Under the pieces are notes generated by a model that searched no databases, had not been told where the DNA came from, and saw only the letters and a list, made by a program, of their open reading frames with translations. Shown here one piece after another: positions 18,793 through 38,956 of a stretch of 44,424 nucleotides of DNA (position 1 is the first letter of the stretch; every line of letters starts with the position of its first letter). Position numbers and translations under genes: made by a program. Source of the stretch: Candidatus Pacearchaeota archaeon (lineage in GTDB: Archaea; Nanobdellota; Nanobdellia; UBA10117; JAFCGI01); the NCBI GenBank assembly GCA_017608235.1, contig JAFCGI010000002.1:1-44424 (forward strand). The letters are read 5' to 3'.

Positions 18793-21708
18793 TTAACCTT
18801 TAATCACTGCCAGTGGCTTTACTTTAGCAACTAAATTTCCAATGCCTGCCTCATGACTAACTCTTACTACTTCATCTATATCTTTATAGACTCCAGGAGC
18901 TTCCTCAGCTACTCCTTTCCAAGAGGTTGACTTAAGTACTATATCTTGTTTCTCTAAAGCAGCCCTAACCGCCTCTCCCCTATATTGTTTCAAAGCAGCA
19001 TGCCTTGACATAACCCTTCCAGCGCCATGAGCAGTACTTCCAAATGAGACCTCTTCAGCTTTTTTAGTTCCAACCAAAAGATATGATGCAGTTCCCATAC
19101 TTCCAGGAATTATAACAGGTTGTCCTACTTTCCTATAAATGCTAGGAATTTCATCTCTTCCAGGACCAAAACTTCTAGTAGCACCTTTTCTATGCATACA
19201 AACTTCTTTAGTTCTACCATCAATCTTATGTTTCTCTACTTTAGCAATATTATGCGCAACATCATAAATCAAATCCATTTTAGTCTTTCCAAACACTTTA
19301 GAAAAACTCTCTCTAGTCCAATGCATTATCATTTGTCTGTTTGCCCATGCATAATTAGCAGAAGCACTCATTGCTTTGAAATATTCCTGTCCTAAATCAG
19401 AATTAAATGGAGCATTTATCAATTCTCTATCAGGCAAATGTTCATGCCCATACTCGTCTTCCATTTTTTTAATATAATCAGAAGCAACCTGATGTCCTAA
19501 TCCTCTAGAACCACAATGAATCATTAGTACAGCATCTCCTTTTTCAACACCAAATACTTTAGCAGTCTTCTCATCAAATAATTCTGAAACTTCAGAAATT
19601 TCTATGAAATGATTTCCTGCTCCTAAACTTCCTATTTGAGGACGCCCTCTTTTCAGAGCAACTTCAGACACAAGACTAGAATCTGCTGCTTTTATTCTTC
19701 CATATTCTTCATGTCTTTCAAGATCTTTTTTAGTTCCATAACCATTCTTAATAGCCCATTCAGATCCCTTATCTAATACTTCAAGAAGCTCATCTTTCTC
19801 AAGTATGGTTTTTCCACCTTTTCCTAATCCTACAGGAACATTTCTATAAATTTCATCAAGAATTGCTTTTCTTCTTTTTCTAATCTCTTCAGTTTTCAAG
19901 CCAGTAGTCAACATACGAACACCACAATTAGATACTATAAAAGAATCTGCAATGAAGTTATGATTATCTCTCATAGTAAAATCATAAACCCTCTCCACGC
20001 CTTTAGCTGAAATTTTTATAATCTTATCAAAAATAACACCATATTCAGCTAAATCCTCAAGACATTTTTTCTTAAAATCTGCAAAAGAAATAAAATCTAA
20101 ATTTATTCTTTGTCCAACATCTTCATAATAGTGCCGTTCAATAAATCTACTATTAATTTTTCCAAAAAGAAGTTTCTGAATTTCTTTAAGTTTCAGCCCT
20201 TTATTTTTATATTCTTTAATTTTATTTGCGAGATCTCTACGCTTAGCATTTTCAGCTTTCTTAAGTAAAATATAGAAAGACGCAATATTTGCTAGATTTT
20301 TTCTTTTTAGATTATACTCAAACCCAATTGTTTTCCAAAGTCGCAGCAAATTTTCTTCTTCTCCAGAAATATTCAATCTTAACCTTACAACTTCACCATA
20401 TTTATTATTTATTCCAGCTCGAGAAGTGATCTTAGAGACTTTCACACCAAGATCTTCTAGAAGCTTCATAATTTGTATTAGGAAGGTCCGCCCACTATCT
20501 TCAAGAACTTTAGCTTTGTTTTGGGATAAAACAGGCATATTAAATCCAGTCTTACTGCCTGTCCTTGGTGAACTTAACTCTGCTCCAAAGAATCCTGCCA
20601 AAAATAAGCGCTTTATCCAATTCTTTGACCGCATTACCCACTTAGGTACACTATATTTAGTAATAGCTTTAGTCCCTAAAGGCATACCCAAAGCTATTAA
20701 TAGATTTGCTAATGCCTTTGAAGGGCAATGTAATTCATAAGTCTCAGTTTCAAAGTTTACCATTCTATATTGCGTATTAATTCTATGTTTTCGTTTCCTA
20801 GAATAAATCTGTGAAGAAAAACCAATCCTTTTCAGATCCTCTTTAATAATTTCTAAATCTTCTTTTGCACCATAAAAATTCACATATCCTTTATTTTTAT
20901 AGAAATACACTAAACCATCACCATATAAATATCCTAGAATCTTAGCTAAATATGGTAATTTAGAACTTGACTCTTTCAGGGGGAGCAAATCTCTTTTTTT
21001 TAGTTCAACGAGTTGCTCTCTAGTAAACCTTGCAGAATATTCATCAATTATTACATAATCAGACGGAATCTCATATTCTACTCCAGTAAATGGGAAAATT
21101 GCAATTACTTCATCAGCACTTAGCTCTTTAAGTTCTTTCATTCCTTTTTTTGTTAAGAATGGGTGATCTTTAGTAGCTCTAATTTTTAGACCAGAAGCAG
21201 TTTCTAGCTCAAATACTTGATCCTCTTTATACATATAAGCTAAAATTTTTTTATTTTCTATTTTTTTAGCGCCAAGAGTAGGTAAAGAAAATGAAAATTG
21301 CATCATGCTATCAGACTGATTAATATTTTGTTGAAAATCTGCGATCTTTAGATTGAAACCATGCTCTGTTAAAATCTTTGTATTACCATGCAAGCAATTA
21401 ATATCATAACCAACTCCTCCTGGCGATATTATACCACTATTAAGATCAAATGCAGCCACTCCTCCAATCGGGAATCCATATCCTTGATGAGCATCAGGCA
21501 TTACCAAAGCATGCTTCTGAATTCCAGAAAGTGCAGCCATATTCTTAGCTTGCTCAAGTGACTTATCAAGTTTTATCTTCTCCATTAATTTCTCGGATGC
21601 AAAAATAATTGTAGGCACTAACATCTTCCCAGCCTTAGGAATCTTATAAGAATAATTTGTTATCTTCTCAGTCTTAATCCCAAATTCATTTCCAATTTCT
21701 TCTTTCAT
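18793..21708 (-). CDS. rtcB: RNA-splicing ligase RtcB, interrupted by an intein
   Basis: GTP- and Mn-dependent 3'-phosphate RNA ligase joining tRNA halves after intron removal. Host sequence is residues 1-104 plus 595-971 (about 481 aa, normal length). Seen motifs: MPDAHQGYGFPIGGVAA, GGVGYDIN|C (metal-binding Asp and Cys), GAGNHFIEI, IHCGSRGLGHQV, HNIAKVEKH and CMHRKGATRSFGPG with the guanylated His. The intein is inserted exactly before the active-site Cys (C595), so spliced enzyme only forms after intein excision. SD GGTGAT lies three bases before the ATG. Archease, its activating partner, is encoded ~1.2 kb away. Confidence 0.96.
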   Translation of the reverse strand: MKEEIGNEFGIKTEKITNYSYKIPKAGKMLVPTIIFASEKLMEKIKLDKSLEQAKNMAALSGIQKHALVMPDAHQGYGFPIGGVAAFDLNSGIISPGGVGYDINCLHGNTKILTEHGFNLKIADFQQNINQSDSMMQFSFSLPTLGAKKIENKKILAYMYKEDQVFELETASGLKIRATKDHPFLTKKGMKELKELSADEVIAIFPFTGVEYEIPSDYVIIDEYSARFTREQLVELKKRDLLPLKESSSKLPYLAKILGYLYGDGLVYFYKNKGYVNFYGAKEDLEIIKEDLKRIGFSSQIYSRKRKHRINTQYRMVNFETETYELHCPSKALANLLIALGMPLGTKAITKYSVPKWVMRSKNWIKRLFLAGFFGAELSSPRTGSKTGFNMPVLSQNKAKVLEDSGRTFLIQIMKLLEDLGVKVSKITSRAGINNKYGEVVRLRLNISGEEENLLRLWKTIGFEYNLKRKNLANIASFYILLKKAENAKRRDLANKIKEYKNKGLKLKEIQKLLFGKINSRFIERHYYEDVGQRINLDFISFADFKKKCLEDLAEYGVIFDKIIKISAKGVERVYDFTMRDNHNFIADSFIVSNCGVRMLTTGLKTEEIRKRRKAILDEIYRNVPVGLGKGGKTILEKDELLEVLDKGSEWAIKNGYGTKKDLERHEEYGRIKAADSSLVSEVALKRGRPQIGSLGAGNHFIEISEVSELFDEKTAKVFGVEKGDAVLMIHCGSRGLGHQVASDYIKKMEDEYGHEHLPDRELINAPFNSDLGQEYFKAMSASANYAWANRQMIMHWTRESFSKVFGKTKMDLIYDVAHNIAKVEKHKIDGRTKEVCMHRKGATRSFGPGRDEIPSIYRKVGQPVIIPGSMGTASYLLVGTKKAEEVSFGSTAHGAGRVMSRHAALKQYRGEAVRAALEKQDIVLKSTSWKGVAEEAPGVYKDIDEVVRVSHEAGIGNLVAKVKPLAVIKG
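19927..21396 (-). mobile_element. Intein with LAGLIDADG homing endonuclease in rtcB
   Basis: 490-residue intein, C105 to N594 of the precursor. Splicing blocks: N-terminal CLHGNTKILTEHGF; block B with RATKDHPFL (T179, H182); C-terminal VYDFTMRDNHNFIADSF then IVSN before extein Cys. The penultimate residue is Ser instead of the usual His, a known but less common variant. Two LAGLIDADG helices are visible, ILGYLYGDG (257-265) and LFLAGFFGAE (368-377), both ending in an acidic residue, so the endonuclease may be active. Confidence 0.93.
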
Positions 21709-35109: not shown

Positions 35110-35460
35110 TTATCTTGCACCTAACAAATTAACAAATTCAAAAAAATAATCATCTGATTTGACAAAAATAGGAACCTTATTATCAAACAGATTATTTAGT
35201 TTGAAAAAAAATACATCTTCCATAACAGATTTTCCTGAACTTAAGAAACAAACAATTTGATTATTCAAAAAAACATTGCTATAAAGCCTAAACAACCTAT
35301 ATGCTTTTTTTTCACATACAGACATAACAACTTTTATATCCTCAGATCTCACTTTAAAATCTGGTAACCGAATAACAACCATGCCTCTTTTAAAACAAAA
35401 ATCAAGTATATCTTTAACTTCGTTCGCCAAAGAATCCATCATAAGAATAATTTTACCCAT
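35110..35460 (-). CDS. Hypothetical protein, 116 aa, divergent from the TS-like operon
   Basis: Not recognised. Mixed alpha/beta, hydrophobic strands alternating with charged helices (MGKIILMMDSLANEVKDILD, GMVVIRLPDFKVRSEDIKVV, MEDVFFFKLNNLF). Rossmann-like or receiver-like fold possible, but no catalytic motif. SD GGAGGTGA (35473-35480) lies 12 bases before the ATG. It shares the twin-operator region with the wHTH/TS-like operon. Confidence 0.55.
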   Translation of the reverse strand: MGKIILMMDSLANEVKDILDFCFKRGMVVIRLPDFKVRSEDIKVVMSVCEKKAYRLFRLYSNVFLNNQIVCFLSSGKSVMEDVFFFKLNNLFDNKVPIFVKSDDYFFEFVNLLGAR

Positions 35461-35486
35461 AATAAGCCTATTTCACCTCCATACTG

Positions 35487-35505
35487 TTTCAAAAAAAATT
35501 TGAAA
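35487..35505. promoter_or_regulatory. Operator candidate 1: TTTCA-N9-TGAAA
   Basis: Inner bases extend the symmetry to TTTCAAA...TTTGAAA. Located at the predicted start site of the minus-strand gene, next to its TATA (35503-35514). Confidence 0.5.
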
Positions 35506-35539
35506 TATATATACATTCTTTACTCTATAAGTTTGAATG

Positions 35540-35558
35540 TTTCAAAAAATCTCTGAAA
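35540..35558. promoter_or_regulatory. Operator candidate 2: TTTCA-N9-TGAAA
   Basis: Same arms and spacing as operator 1, centre-to-centre distance 53 bp (about five helical turns). Just upstream of the plus-strand TATA TTTATATAA (35567-35575), which is 26 bp before the ATG at 35597. Confidence 0.5.
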
Positions 35559-35596
35559 TAAGAAATTTTATATAATTGTACTTCTTCTGAAATTTT

Positions 35597-37207
35597 ATGT
35601 CTAGAACAGAAGATAGTATCTTAAATCTGTTTAAAAAACATCCTACTAAAACATTTTCAACTACTGAAATAATAGAAAACATAGATCCTAAACATAATAA
35701 AATTAAAGAGATCATTCAAAACCAATATTCTTCTAAAGACCAAATAAAAAAAGCTAAACAACTAAAAGCAAAGCTTCACAGAAAGATACTATATTATATA
35801 AACAAATTAATAGAAAACGATGTGCTAATTCTAGAAAAACAAGGAAACAAGGGAGAAAAATATGTATCATTATCAATAAAAGATGATGAAGAATTAATAG
35901 TTAGAAAATATACAAAAAGAAAAATCACAATCTCTAAACCTCACATGCCAGCAAGTCCCATAGAAGGTTATGAACAGATAGGTATAGTTCATAAATTTGA
36001 AGCAGTAAACTGGATAAGTAGATTAAATTCCATATTAATAGAAGTTGAAAAAATTAAAGATCTATCAAAAACCTATGATCTAATAAACAACTGGTTTTCA
36101 AATGTAAATGATGCTATAGGCTTAAATAACTTTGAATACTTCATTAAAAAGAATGATAACAAAGCTATTAATTTTCTAAAAAAAATAGATGTTGATTGTA
36201 AAGATTATGGGAAAAAGCTAACTTTAATATTAGACTTAAGCAACATCACTAAAAAAGACTATAGTTCTATATTAAAATTTATTGAGAATTATAAAAAATA
36301 TACAAACTCTGTACATCTTATAATAGACTTAACTAGCAAAGAAATAAACGAACATTCAGAATTATTAGACAATGCAGTTAGCATATATTCAAAATATGCA
36401 AGTAGAATATGGATAAAAAATAAGGACGTGCATAGTGCTCCATATATAATTGGCAGGCCAGGACCATATACTTTTAATAACAAAGAATGGGAGCAATACA
36501 AGCATGAATATCCTGAAAAACTATTAGGAATTTCTTGCGGTCAAAGCACACTATCAATAGATCTAGCAAAATTCTTCTCAGAAAATAAACCTAGAATAAA
36601 AGAATTTAATGAGTTTTTAATAAATAATGCTAATACATTATTAACTGGAAATTCTCTGCAAAGAAGAAAGTCCAGCGAATACTTCAAAAATATAATCGCA
36701 CTCAATGCTCCATCTGAAAAAGGATTCTTTAATTTCTCTAGAAACTATATACGATTCTGGAATTATGGTTGGAAACAAGATAATATAGACCAAGAGCTAA
36801 TTTCTGATCTATTAAAAACAATCAAAGATAAAATAGATCAATTTTGTCTAAATGAAGAAACCATCTATATGGTATGTGGAATGCCTATGAGATTCAAAAT
36901 AGCGTTTTCATGCGCATTCAGAGGATATCATAGCCAATTCTTTACACAACCAAAATATAAAAAACTAAAAATCCAAAGTTCTGAAATATTGTATAATAAA
37001 AATATTAAAGAAATACTAAAGGCAAAAGAAAAAATAACTAATATTTTTGATGGTGGCGACACTATGAGTTTTTACAGACAACCAGAAGATCTTGATGAAA
37101 TAACAAATGAACTTAGAATAATAAATTCTTACAAACTACCTCTAATAAGCTATAAATTCGAAATGCCTAGTAAAGTTAATCTAAAACTTGATCAATTCAT
37201 AAAATAA
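35597..37207 (+). CDS. Winged-helix protein of unknown function, 536 aa
   Basis: Residues 1-~95 look like a winged helix (ILNLFKKHPTKTFSTTEIIE, KAKLHRKILYYINKLIENDV, GNKGEKYVSLSIKDDEE). The remaining ~440 residues are not recognised; hydrophobic strands LTLILDLSN and VHLIIDLTS and segments YIIGRPGPYTFNNKEWEQYK, ETIYMVCGMPMRFKIAFSCA and FDGGDTMSFYRQPEDLDEI suggest an alpha/beta enzyme-like domain. Only one base separates it from the thymidylate-synthase-like gene, so a joint function is likely. It may also bind the twin operators. Leaderless start. Confidence 0.65.
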   Translation: MSRTEDSILNLFKKHPTKTFSTTEIIENIDPKHNKIKEIIQNQYSSKDQIKKAKQLKAKLHRKILYYINKLIENDVLILEKQGNKGEKYVSLSIKDDEELIVRKYTKRKITISKPHMPASPIEGYEQIGIVHKFEAVNWISRLNSILIEVEKIKDLSKTYDLINNWFSNVNDAIGLNNFEYFIKKNDNKAINFLKKIDVDCKDYGKKLTLILDLSNITKKDYSSILKFIENYKKYTNSVHLIIDLTSKEINEHSELLDNAVSIYSKYASRIWIKNKDVHSAPYIIGRPGPYTFNNKEWEQYKHEYPEKLLGISCGQSTLSIDLAKFFSENKPRIKEFNEFLINNANTLLTGNSLQRRKSSEYFKNIIALNAPSEKGFFNFSRNYIRFWNYGWKQDNIDQELISDLLKTIKDKIDQFCLNEETIYMVCGMPMRFKIAFSCAFRGYHSQFFTQPKYKKLKIQSSEILYNKNIKEILKAKEKITNIFDGGDTMSFYRQPEDLDEITNELRIINSYKLPLISYKFEMPSKVNLKLDQFIK

Positions 37208-37208
37208 A

Positions 37209-37859
37209 ATGTACATCTCAAAAGAAACCACTTATGAAACTTGGAAAAACATTCTTAGTCAGATCTATAAAAAAGGTCAAGACTTCAAGGATCATAGAAA
37301 TAGAATATGCAGGGAAATTCTAAATGTGAATTTAGAAATACAAAATCCTGAAAAAGACATAACAAAACCAATAGACAGACTAAATAAATTTCAGATATGG
37401 AAATATCCACCATTAGAAGAAATAGAAAACATAATACTTTCAAGACATTCTATTCCAGATTACAAATATAGCTATGGCCCAAGACTTTTTAATTTTAATC
37501 AAAAAATAGATCAAGTAAATGATTTTCTAATACCTTTACTAAAAAAAGATCTGCTAACCAGAAGAGCAGTACTCTGTGTATGGGATCCATTAGAAGACTC
37601 TAACATAGAAAACAAAGAAAGTCCTGGATTAGCACTTATTGATATAAAACTAAGAAATAACAAACTTAATCTAACAACAATAATTAGATCAAATGATATT
37701 TTCTTTGGCTGGCCAGCAAACATATACCAACTATTTGCACTACAAAAATATATACAAAAAAGAATAAACTGCAAGATAGGCAAACTAAGCACTTTCTCAA
37801 CCTCAGCACACATCTATGAAGATCAATTTCCCTACATCAAAAAAATCCTAGACAAATAA
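37209..37859 (+). CDS. Thymidylate-synthase-fold protein lacking the catalytic Cys
   Basis: 216 aa, the length of archaeal (methanogen-type) thymidylate synthases. Conserved dUMP-site features: YSYGPRLF (88-94), RR at 118-119 in TRRAVLCVWDPLED, IRSNDIFFGWPANI (R160, S161, D163, G167, N171) and TSAHIYEDQ (H201, Y203). The active-site segment PPCH reads SPGL, so the nucleophilic Cys is G140. Standard methyl transfer through a Cys-C6 adduct is impossible; it may bind a pyrimidine nucleotide as a sensor or perform other chemistry. Overlaps bud32 by one base (TAATG). Confidence 0.75.
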   Translation: MYISKETTYETWKNILSQIYKKGQDFKDHRNRICREILNVNLEIQNPEKDITKPIDRLNKFQIWKYPPLEEIENIILSRHSIPDYKYSYGPRLFNFNQKIDQVNDFLIPLLKKDLLTRRAVLCVWDPLEDSNIENKESPGLALIDIKLRNNKLNLTTIIRSNDIFFGWPANIYQLFALQKYIQKRINCKIGKLSTFSTSAHIYEDQFPYIKKILDK

Positions 37860-38500
37860 TGAAAAAACTCATAGCACAAGGAGCAGAAGCAAAGATCTAC
37901 AAAGAAAATAACAAGATCATTAAAGAGCGTATCAAAAAGAACTATAGAATTCCAGAAATTGATCAAAAACTAAGAAAACAAAGAACAAAACAAGAAGCAT
38001 CCCTTATATCTAAAGCAATAAGAGCCAAAGTAGCCTCTGCCTCTGTCCTAGAATATAATCTCAAAAAGAACATTCTAGAAATAGAATATCTTCAAGGACC
38101 TAAAATCCGAGACTATCTTAATTCTCTAAATGAAAACAAAAAAAAACAAAATTTAGAAATTAAAAACACTTCTAAAAAAATTGGTTCAATAATTGGAAAA
38201 CTTCATGAAGCAAATATCATTCATGGTGATTTAACAACCTCAAACATGATATTCAAAGATAAAGAAATCTACATCATAGATTTTGGATTAGGTTCTTTTT
38301 CTGAAAAAATAGAAGATAAAGCAGTAGATTTACATCTTTTCAAAGAATGTCTAAAGAGCAAACACTATAGTATTTGGAGAATTTGTTGGCAAGAATTCAT
38401 AAAAGCATATAAAAAAGAACTCAAAAATTCAAAAAAAATTTTAGAAAGATTAGAAACTGTAGAAGCTCGAGGCAGATATAAAAAATTAGGCACTCAGTAA
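37859..38500 (+). CDS. bud32: KEOPS complex kinase/ATPase Bud32
   Basis: Minimal protein-kinase-fold subunit of KEOPS (t6A tRNA modification), separate from Kae1 here. 213 aa: LIAQGAEAKIY (P-loop-like strand), IHGDLTTSNMI (catalytic D124, N129), IIDFGLGSF (D141) and C-terminal EARGRYKKLG. Translationally coupled to the TS-like gene. Convergent 15-nt overlap with the next gene. Confidence 0.93.
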   Translation: MKKLIAQGAEAKIYKENNKIIKERIKKNYRIPEIDQKLRKQRTKQEASLISKAIRAKVASASVLEYNLKKNILEIEYLQGPKIRDYLNSLNENKKKQNLEIKNTSKKIGSIIGKLHEANIIHGDLTTSNMIFKDKEIYIIDFGLGSFSEKIEDKAVDLHLFKECLKSKHYSIWRICWQEFIKAYKKELKNSKKILERLETVEARGRYKKLGTQ

Positions 38501-38956
38501 AATAGACCTAATAATATTTAGTAATCCTTCATTAGCATAAATATTTAACTTTCTCCCATCATACTCTATAGAAAAATATCTATCTGCACTAGACTTTATA
38601 TCTGAATAGCCAAAAGTATAAGAAAAATCAGACTTTTCTCTATCTGGCTTTATATTAAATCCATAACTAGTAATAACCCAGCCTATTCTATTAGTATCAG
38701 AAATACCTGGTTTTTTAGGATCAACAATCACTCCTTTAAACTCTCCATTAATTCTAAAAACTCCATCTTTTTCCAAAATTCTTTCAACTTGAGAAGCTAG
38801 TTCTTTAATACTATTAAATTCTAGAGAAGTGTCATAGCTAGGTATATTGTCAGTTAGCCTGCCAGTATCCAAGCTATCAAAACTAAAACTCTTACTCTTA
38901 CCATTAAATAAATTCATCATATTTACTGAATCTGCTTCAAATACATATAGCGCCAT
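38486..38956 (-). CDS. Hypothetical protein, 156 aa
   Basis: Not recognised. Acidic, mostly beta (VFRINGEFKGVIVDPKKPGI, RIGWVITSYGFNIKP, YFSIEYDGRKLNIYANEG). No TM or signal. SD GGAG about nine bases before the ATG; TATA probably shared with uS15 near 39003-39011 or TTTTTAAAT near 38985. It overlaps the bud32 3' end by 15 nt. Confidence 0.55.
   Translation of the reverse strand: MALYVFEADSVNMMNLFNGKSKSFSFDSLDTGRLTDNIPSYDTSLEFNSIKELASQVERILEKDGVFRINGEFKGVIVDPKKPGISDTNRIGWVITSYGFNIKPDREKSDFSYTFGYSDIKSSADRYFSIEYDGRKLNIYANEGLLNIIRSILLSA

Follow-up and report, generated by a model that had tools for sequence, protein, structure and literature searches.

A conserved gene pair of Nanoarchaeia with RNR-fold and Cys-less thymidylate-synthase-fold products as a candidate nucleotide-sensing regulator

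Genes at the locus and conservation of the pair

The window, that is, the whole stretch of 44,424 nucleotides analysed here, holds a three-gene operon in surroundings of translation and tRNA genes. All three ORFs lie on the + strand, spaced by +1 base between P0001 and P0002 and by −1 base between P0002 and bud32, and a shorter ORF is encoded divergently upstream.

35110–35460, − strand: divergent ORF of 116 aa, in the slot that an Lrp-like regulator occupies in relatives
35597–37207, + strand: operon gene 1, P0001, a 536-aa winged-helix/RNR-fold protein
37209–37859, + strand: operon gene 2, P0002, a Cys-less thymidylate-synthase (TS)-fold protein of 216 aa
37859–38500, + strand: operon gene 3, Bud32 (213 aa), a co-transcribed neighbour in the window's genome only and outside the conserved unit

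These coordinates and gaps agree with the three-gene operon and co-translated pair described in the initial annotation, and its naming of the third gene as the KEOPS kinase Bud32 is confirmed by a TIGR03724 match above cutoff (214 bits; cutoff 125). Two ORFs that flank the operon, 38486–38956 (−) and 35110–35460 (−), belong to no Pfam family. Elsewhere in the window, a 971-aa ORF at 18793–21708 resembles, as recognised by eye, an RtcB-type RNA ligase with an intein inside.

P0001 was found by search in 15 of 280 genomes of the class, and a profile search yielded 36 strong cases of the large gene among 371 genomes, or about 10% of the sampled Nanoarchaeia. A scan of GTDB genome contigs gave 28 loci titled Woesearchaeota, Nanoarchaeota, Nanoarchaeia, Pacearchaeota or unassigned archaea. 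Weak matches in the genome search were set aside, two of them (G263 and G348) being an ATPase and one (G028) an unrelated HTH-type match. The distribution is patchy, and the window's genome is the only carrier among the sampled members of its order. Of 43 loci examined, 34 are distinct, and the TS-like gene directly follows P0001, in the same order, in every one (34/34 distinct, 43/43 examined), usually within ~35 bases or with an overlap. The pair is therefore widespread, not the single occurrence that the initial annotation had allowed for. The distance matrices of P0001 and P0002 correlate with r 0.91, which is limited as evidence since common ancestry alone could yield such a correlation.

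Whether the pair travels without bud32 had been posed at the outset; bud32 adjoins it in the window only and is absent there in all 33 other distinct loci, so that the suggested tie to tRNA modification is unsupported. The locus survey found no cofactor, activase or β-subunit gene in the conserved neighbourhood of the pair, and no conserved defence neighbours. Nothing on the pair, on fusions of HTH and RNR or on TS without the Cys appeared in the portion of the open-access literature that was covered.

Predicted folds and the missing catalytic residues

Family searches say little about P0001, which has no match in Pfam, NCBIfam or PDB sequences, only two weak matches in PHROGs, and falls below detection for the RNR sequence families PF13597 and PF02867; 34 relatives scanned singly gave just three isolated weak Pfam matches. 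The AlphaFold model (mean pLDDT 86.8, from 34 aligned sequences) is far more telling. Among the matches listed by Foldseek against the PDB, 50 of 50 are RNRs, spanning classes I, II and III; the best is T. maritima class III RNR (E 4e-9, probability 1.00), and the TM-scores to RNRs are modest, at 0.44–0.50. In a library of viral structures, RNRs take ranks 1–4 and account for most other matches up to E 1e-3, one of which is unnamed. Thus the description of the large domain as unrecognised, given in the initial annotation, stands as far as Pfam and NCBIfam families go and had overlooked an RNR fold, while the winged helix placed in the same protein reappears in the model as an N-terminal region ending at about residue 93. 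The domain does not match a known family with an explained role either; its fold is known and its catalytic residues are lost.

35597–35875, + strand: winged-helix region of P0001, residues 1–93 (AlphaFold secondary structure)
36023–37159, + strand: RNR-like ten-stranded α/β barrel of P0001, residues 143–521 (model and structure matches)
36422–36526, + strand: finger loop of P0001, residues 276–310, placed by strand order in the model
37626–37628, + strand: codon for Gly140 of P0002, where TS has its catalytic Cys (alignment of 34 sequences)

In the model, the winged-helix region is built from helices at residues 3–14, 22–29, 32–41 and 47–73 followed by strands 77–82 and 88–92, and its conserved residues are R62, L65, Y66, L71, G86 and K88. 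The barrel strands (143–149, 170–177, 207–213, 239–245, 270–275, 311–322, 382–388, 435–439, 490–494 and 516–521) are arranged as two half-barrels, and the finger loop connects strand five to strand six. P282, G286 and G289 of this loop are invariant (34/34). No conserved Cys that could correspond to the radical cysteine of RNR occurs at residues 276–310 in the 34 sequences, the exact residue equivalence to the RNR finger loop resting on strand order and motif context. The glycyl-radical tail is also absent, the modelled protein terminating after strand ten. The NrdD profile matched weakly, in the C-terminal register that would be expected, and P moved from 0.07 to 0.004 when a deeper NrdD profile was used; sequence-only comparisons with NrdJ and with an HTH-NrdD family were not significant. 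Collinear motifs seen by eye (NrdD 'DVRSMCCRL' and P0001 'DVHSAPYIIGR'; EETKNIYNLEATP and NEETIYMVCGMP) serve as a lead and not as a test. Taken together, the model and its structural matches support a winged-helix head on an RNR barrel that is predicted to lack both the radical cysteine and the glycyl-radical tail. Two other cysteines are retained, C427 in 97% of members and C314 in 71%, and so P0001 may still carry out some chemistry.

P0002 is a TS homologue without the catalytic Cys, as the initial annotation had it. Its sequence matches PF00303 (62.7 bits) and the methanogen TS family TIGR03283 (145.6 bits, below the cutoff of 174.6), and its fold is that of TS, with a TM-score of up to 0.85, to the CMP hydroxymethylase MilA. 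It also matches the short TS-fold dCMP hydroxylases 9iqu and 9iqc (TM 0.78), the latter described with FAD. The nucleotide-binding residues R32, R118, R119, R160, S161, D163, N171 and H201 are kept in 30–34 of 34 sequences, and the catalytic Cys is replaced in all 34 (Gly in 21, Ser in 10, Ala in 3); canonical ThyA and the MtrA-TS-DUF4346 fusions of relatives retain it. These data support a TS fold that has kept the residues binding the phosphate and base of a dNMP and has lost its catalytic Cys. As such, P0001 and P0002 form an apparently inactivated pseudo-RNR/pseudo-TS pair with a predicted DNA-binding head.

All pair genomes examined have an RNR match, two of them marginal, and most carry a separate TS (PF00303) or ThyX (PF02511) match, so neither activity is likely to depend on the pair alone. 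The idea that it is the genome's only TS was rejected for most genomes on these separate matches, and RNR presence proved uninformative as a correlate of the pair, nearly all sampled genomes having an RNR.

Several related architectures were encountered. A protein of the window's own genome (L126 910–2817, from G000:C32) fuses an ArsR-type HTH to an NrdD barrel (PF13597, 78 bits); its family (L126, L234–L241), represented in some ten of the genomes sampled from the window's order, the window's genome included, lacks the radical-Cys motif and the glycyl-radical tail and is a second candidate for an RNR-derived regulator. P0001 is therefore not the only case of an RNR barrel that carries a DNA-binding head. 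At L116 1408–3720 (from G000:C19), an NrdR-like Zn-ribbon (TIGR00244, 58 bits, below cutoff) is fused ahead of the ATP-cone of a full NrdD, and this RNR may carry its own repressor head. Proteins of ~520–600 aa with two tandem ThyX-like (PF02511) segments occur in several Nanoarchaeia (L048, L049, L050 and G000:C19:54362–55798). Nanoarchaeia without the pair (L004–L014) have TS joined to the pterin-binding DUF4346, often with MtrA as well, in varying domain orders and with the catalytic Cys kept.

A conserved palindrome at the pair promoter

The initial annotation had missed a 21-bp palindrome, GTTTCA-N9-TGAAAC, that is common to the sequences upstream of the pair and lies in the promoter.

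35486–35506: predicted operator 1, GTTTCA-N9-TGAAAT, one mismatch to GTTTCA-N9-TGAAAC (palindrome scan)
35539–35559: predicted operator 2, a second copy of the palindrome at a distance of 53 bp from operator 1 and just upstream of the TATA box
35566–35575, + strand: archaeal TATA box, TTTTATATAA, ~30 bp before the start codon and at the same position in most relatives

At two mismatches or fewer the palindrome is present in 26 of 32 upstream regions of 250 bases each, several of them from close relatives. Controls fell well short of this count, as 119 arm-permuted palindromes reached at most 6/32 and other spacings at most 7/32. Of 31 pair genomes, 13 have the exact palindrome; 35 genomes lacking the pair have no exact copy. 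Exact sites number 15, with nine at the pair promoter and one at a stand-alone Lrp-like gene. Twelve regions, at least seven of them from near relatives, have a second palindrome at a distance of 51, 52 or 53 bp, or roughly five helical turns. The window contains only its two sites, against 0.19 expected from dinucleotide shuffles, and its genome contains three. The third, also with one mismatch, is on a virus-like contig that carries a stand-alone ThyX as well (L272, G000:C49:16866). These observations support a conserved palindromic operator at the pair promoter; that a protein binds it we infer from sequence. One-mismatch sites elsewhere in the genomes are at control level, and the promoters of RNR, TS and ThyX genes had no operator at one mismatch or fewer. 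Autoregulation is therefore all that can be seen of the circuit, and no regulon wider than the operon plus Lrp-like genes is apparent.

An Lrp/AsnC-like gene (PF01037; NF041396 below its cutoff) is encoded divergently upstream of the pair in 24 of the 34 distinct loci. The operator also precedes Lrp-like genes standing apart from the pair (L040/L091 and L257), and at L040 the pair promoter has none. Pair promoters with no adjacent Lrp-like gene (the window, L018, L038, L044, L092 and L104) keep the operator. The 116-aa divergent ORF of the window was considered as an Lrp relic and dismissed, its profile score being not significant (−0.4 bits, E 0.05).

Proposed function and relation to known systems

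The data support the RNR fold, the loss of catalytic residues, the obligate pairing and the conserved operator. Since both nucleophiles are lost from conserved pockets, P0001 bears a winged-helix head, pairing is obligate and the operator is dedicated to the unit, we lean modestly towards reading the pair as an autoregulated deoxynucleotide-sensing regulator derived from retired deoxynucleotide enzymes. P0001 and P0002 would associate in a complex, with (deoxy)nucleotides bound in the pockets of the barrel and of the TS fold. Pocket occupancy would alter how the winged helix, or else the Lrp-like protein encoded divergently, binds DNA, putatively at the 21-bp palindromes that precede the TATA box, thereby letting the nucleotide pool autoregulate the operon. 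The complex, its ligand, the operator-binding partner and any further targets are our inferences here. Features of a one-component regulator are present, namely a winged helix with a putative ligand-binding domain and a conserved palindrome at its own promoter, the binding being predicted. One guess of the initial annotation, a nucleotide-sensing regulator with Bud32 as a mere neighbour, coincides with this modestly favoured reading.

An enzyme with unfamiliar nucleotide chemistry, for example a TS-fold base modifier that makes no use of Cys together with an RNR-fold partner, is an unlikely alternative that deserves weight. The winged helix would then be a nucleic-acid or dimerisation module and the operator a mere promoter switch of the operon. 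The strongly conserved TS pocket, the near-universal C427 and the good matches, by fold, to MilA and the dCMP hydroxylases all point this way, yet one unit has lost the canonical nucleophiles of both RNR and TS, P0001 bears a winged-helix head, and the conserved neighbourhood has no associated cofactor or activase gene. It is rather improbable that the Lrp-like protein itself binds the palindrome and senses the signal, leaving the pair as a downstream effector such as a protein inhibitor tuning the true RNR or TS. Such a division of labour is in keeping with the frequent divergent Lrp-like gene, with operators before Lrp-like genes away from the pair and none at the L040 pair promoter, and with the want of a wider regulon at one mismatch or fewer; retention of the operator at six pair promoters with no adjacent Lrp-like gene argues against it, with the proviso that one could lie elsewhere in the genome.

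The patchy distribution, with a single carrier sampled in the window's order, would suit genes of anti-virus defence or of a mobile element acting on nucleotides. We think this very unlikely, as PADLOC matches neither P0001 nor P0002, IMG/VR viral contigs gave no related pair and defence genes are not conserved nearby. Least credible is a nucleotide or tRNA modification system linked to Bud32, to which the overlapping genes point in the window's genome only; the survey of other loci already contradicts it, and the window's translation and tRNA genes are a natural home for bud32.

Returning to the regulator reading, this two-gene unit, carried by many very small archaea that are for the most part uncultured, suggests a form of nucleotide-sensing control not described so far. 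It is conceivable, and somewhat short of probable, that inactivated copies of RNR and TS together serve as the sensor with which a DNA-binding complex reads the dNTP state, and that they constitute a new class of transcriptional regulator. What would be new is the system; taken singly, its parts are divergent forms of folds already known. RNR and TS are the defining enzymes of the DNA-precursor pathway; if the reading is true, the pair would be a new means of sensing dNTP pools and a rare RNR barrel outside catalysis, in a small control circuit of one 21-bp operator and two proteins.

Among known proteins, class III RNR NrdD (PF13597/TIGR02487) gives the best structural matches to P0001 and shares with it the ten-stranded barrel, the finger loop and a weak C-terminal sequence match. 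Unlike NrdD, P0001 carries a winged helix in place of the ATP-cone, lacks the glycyl-radical tail and has a loop without a conserved radical Cys; it is also below Pfam detection. The HTH-NrdD-like proteins (L126, L234–L241) likewise combine a DNA-binding head with an RNR barrel devoid of radical Cys and tail; in contrast to P0001, their head is of ArsR type, their similarity to PF13597 is clear, no TS partner lies within the few kb examined and the operator is absent. P0002 shares its TS-domain sequence family and nucleotide-binding residues with methanogen-type TS (TIGR03283) and the MtrA-TS-DUF4346 fusions, from which it differs in having neither the Cys nor the pterin-binding domain and in its pairing with P0001. 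Lrp/AsnC regulators are represented by the divergent partner gene, but as a separate protein that is not required beside the pair. NrdR senses ATP/dATP and binds paired boxes, with a whole number of helical turns from centre to centre (PMC9110341, PMC12051234). It is built from a Zn-ribbon and an ATP-cone, neither of which the pair has by Pfam or NCBIfam; no domain is homologous, and its boxes sit at RNR genes, whereas the palindromes of the pair occur only at its own operon and at Lrp-like genes. In its proposed logic of nucleotide sensing through spaced palindromic boxes, the pair would nonetheless find its closest functional analogy in NrdR.
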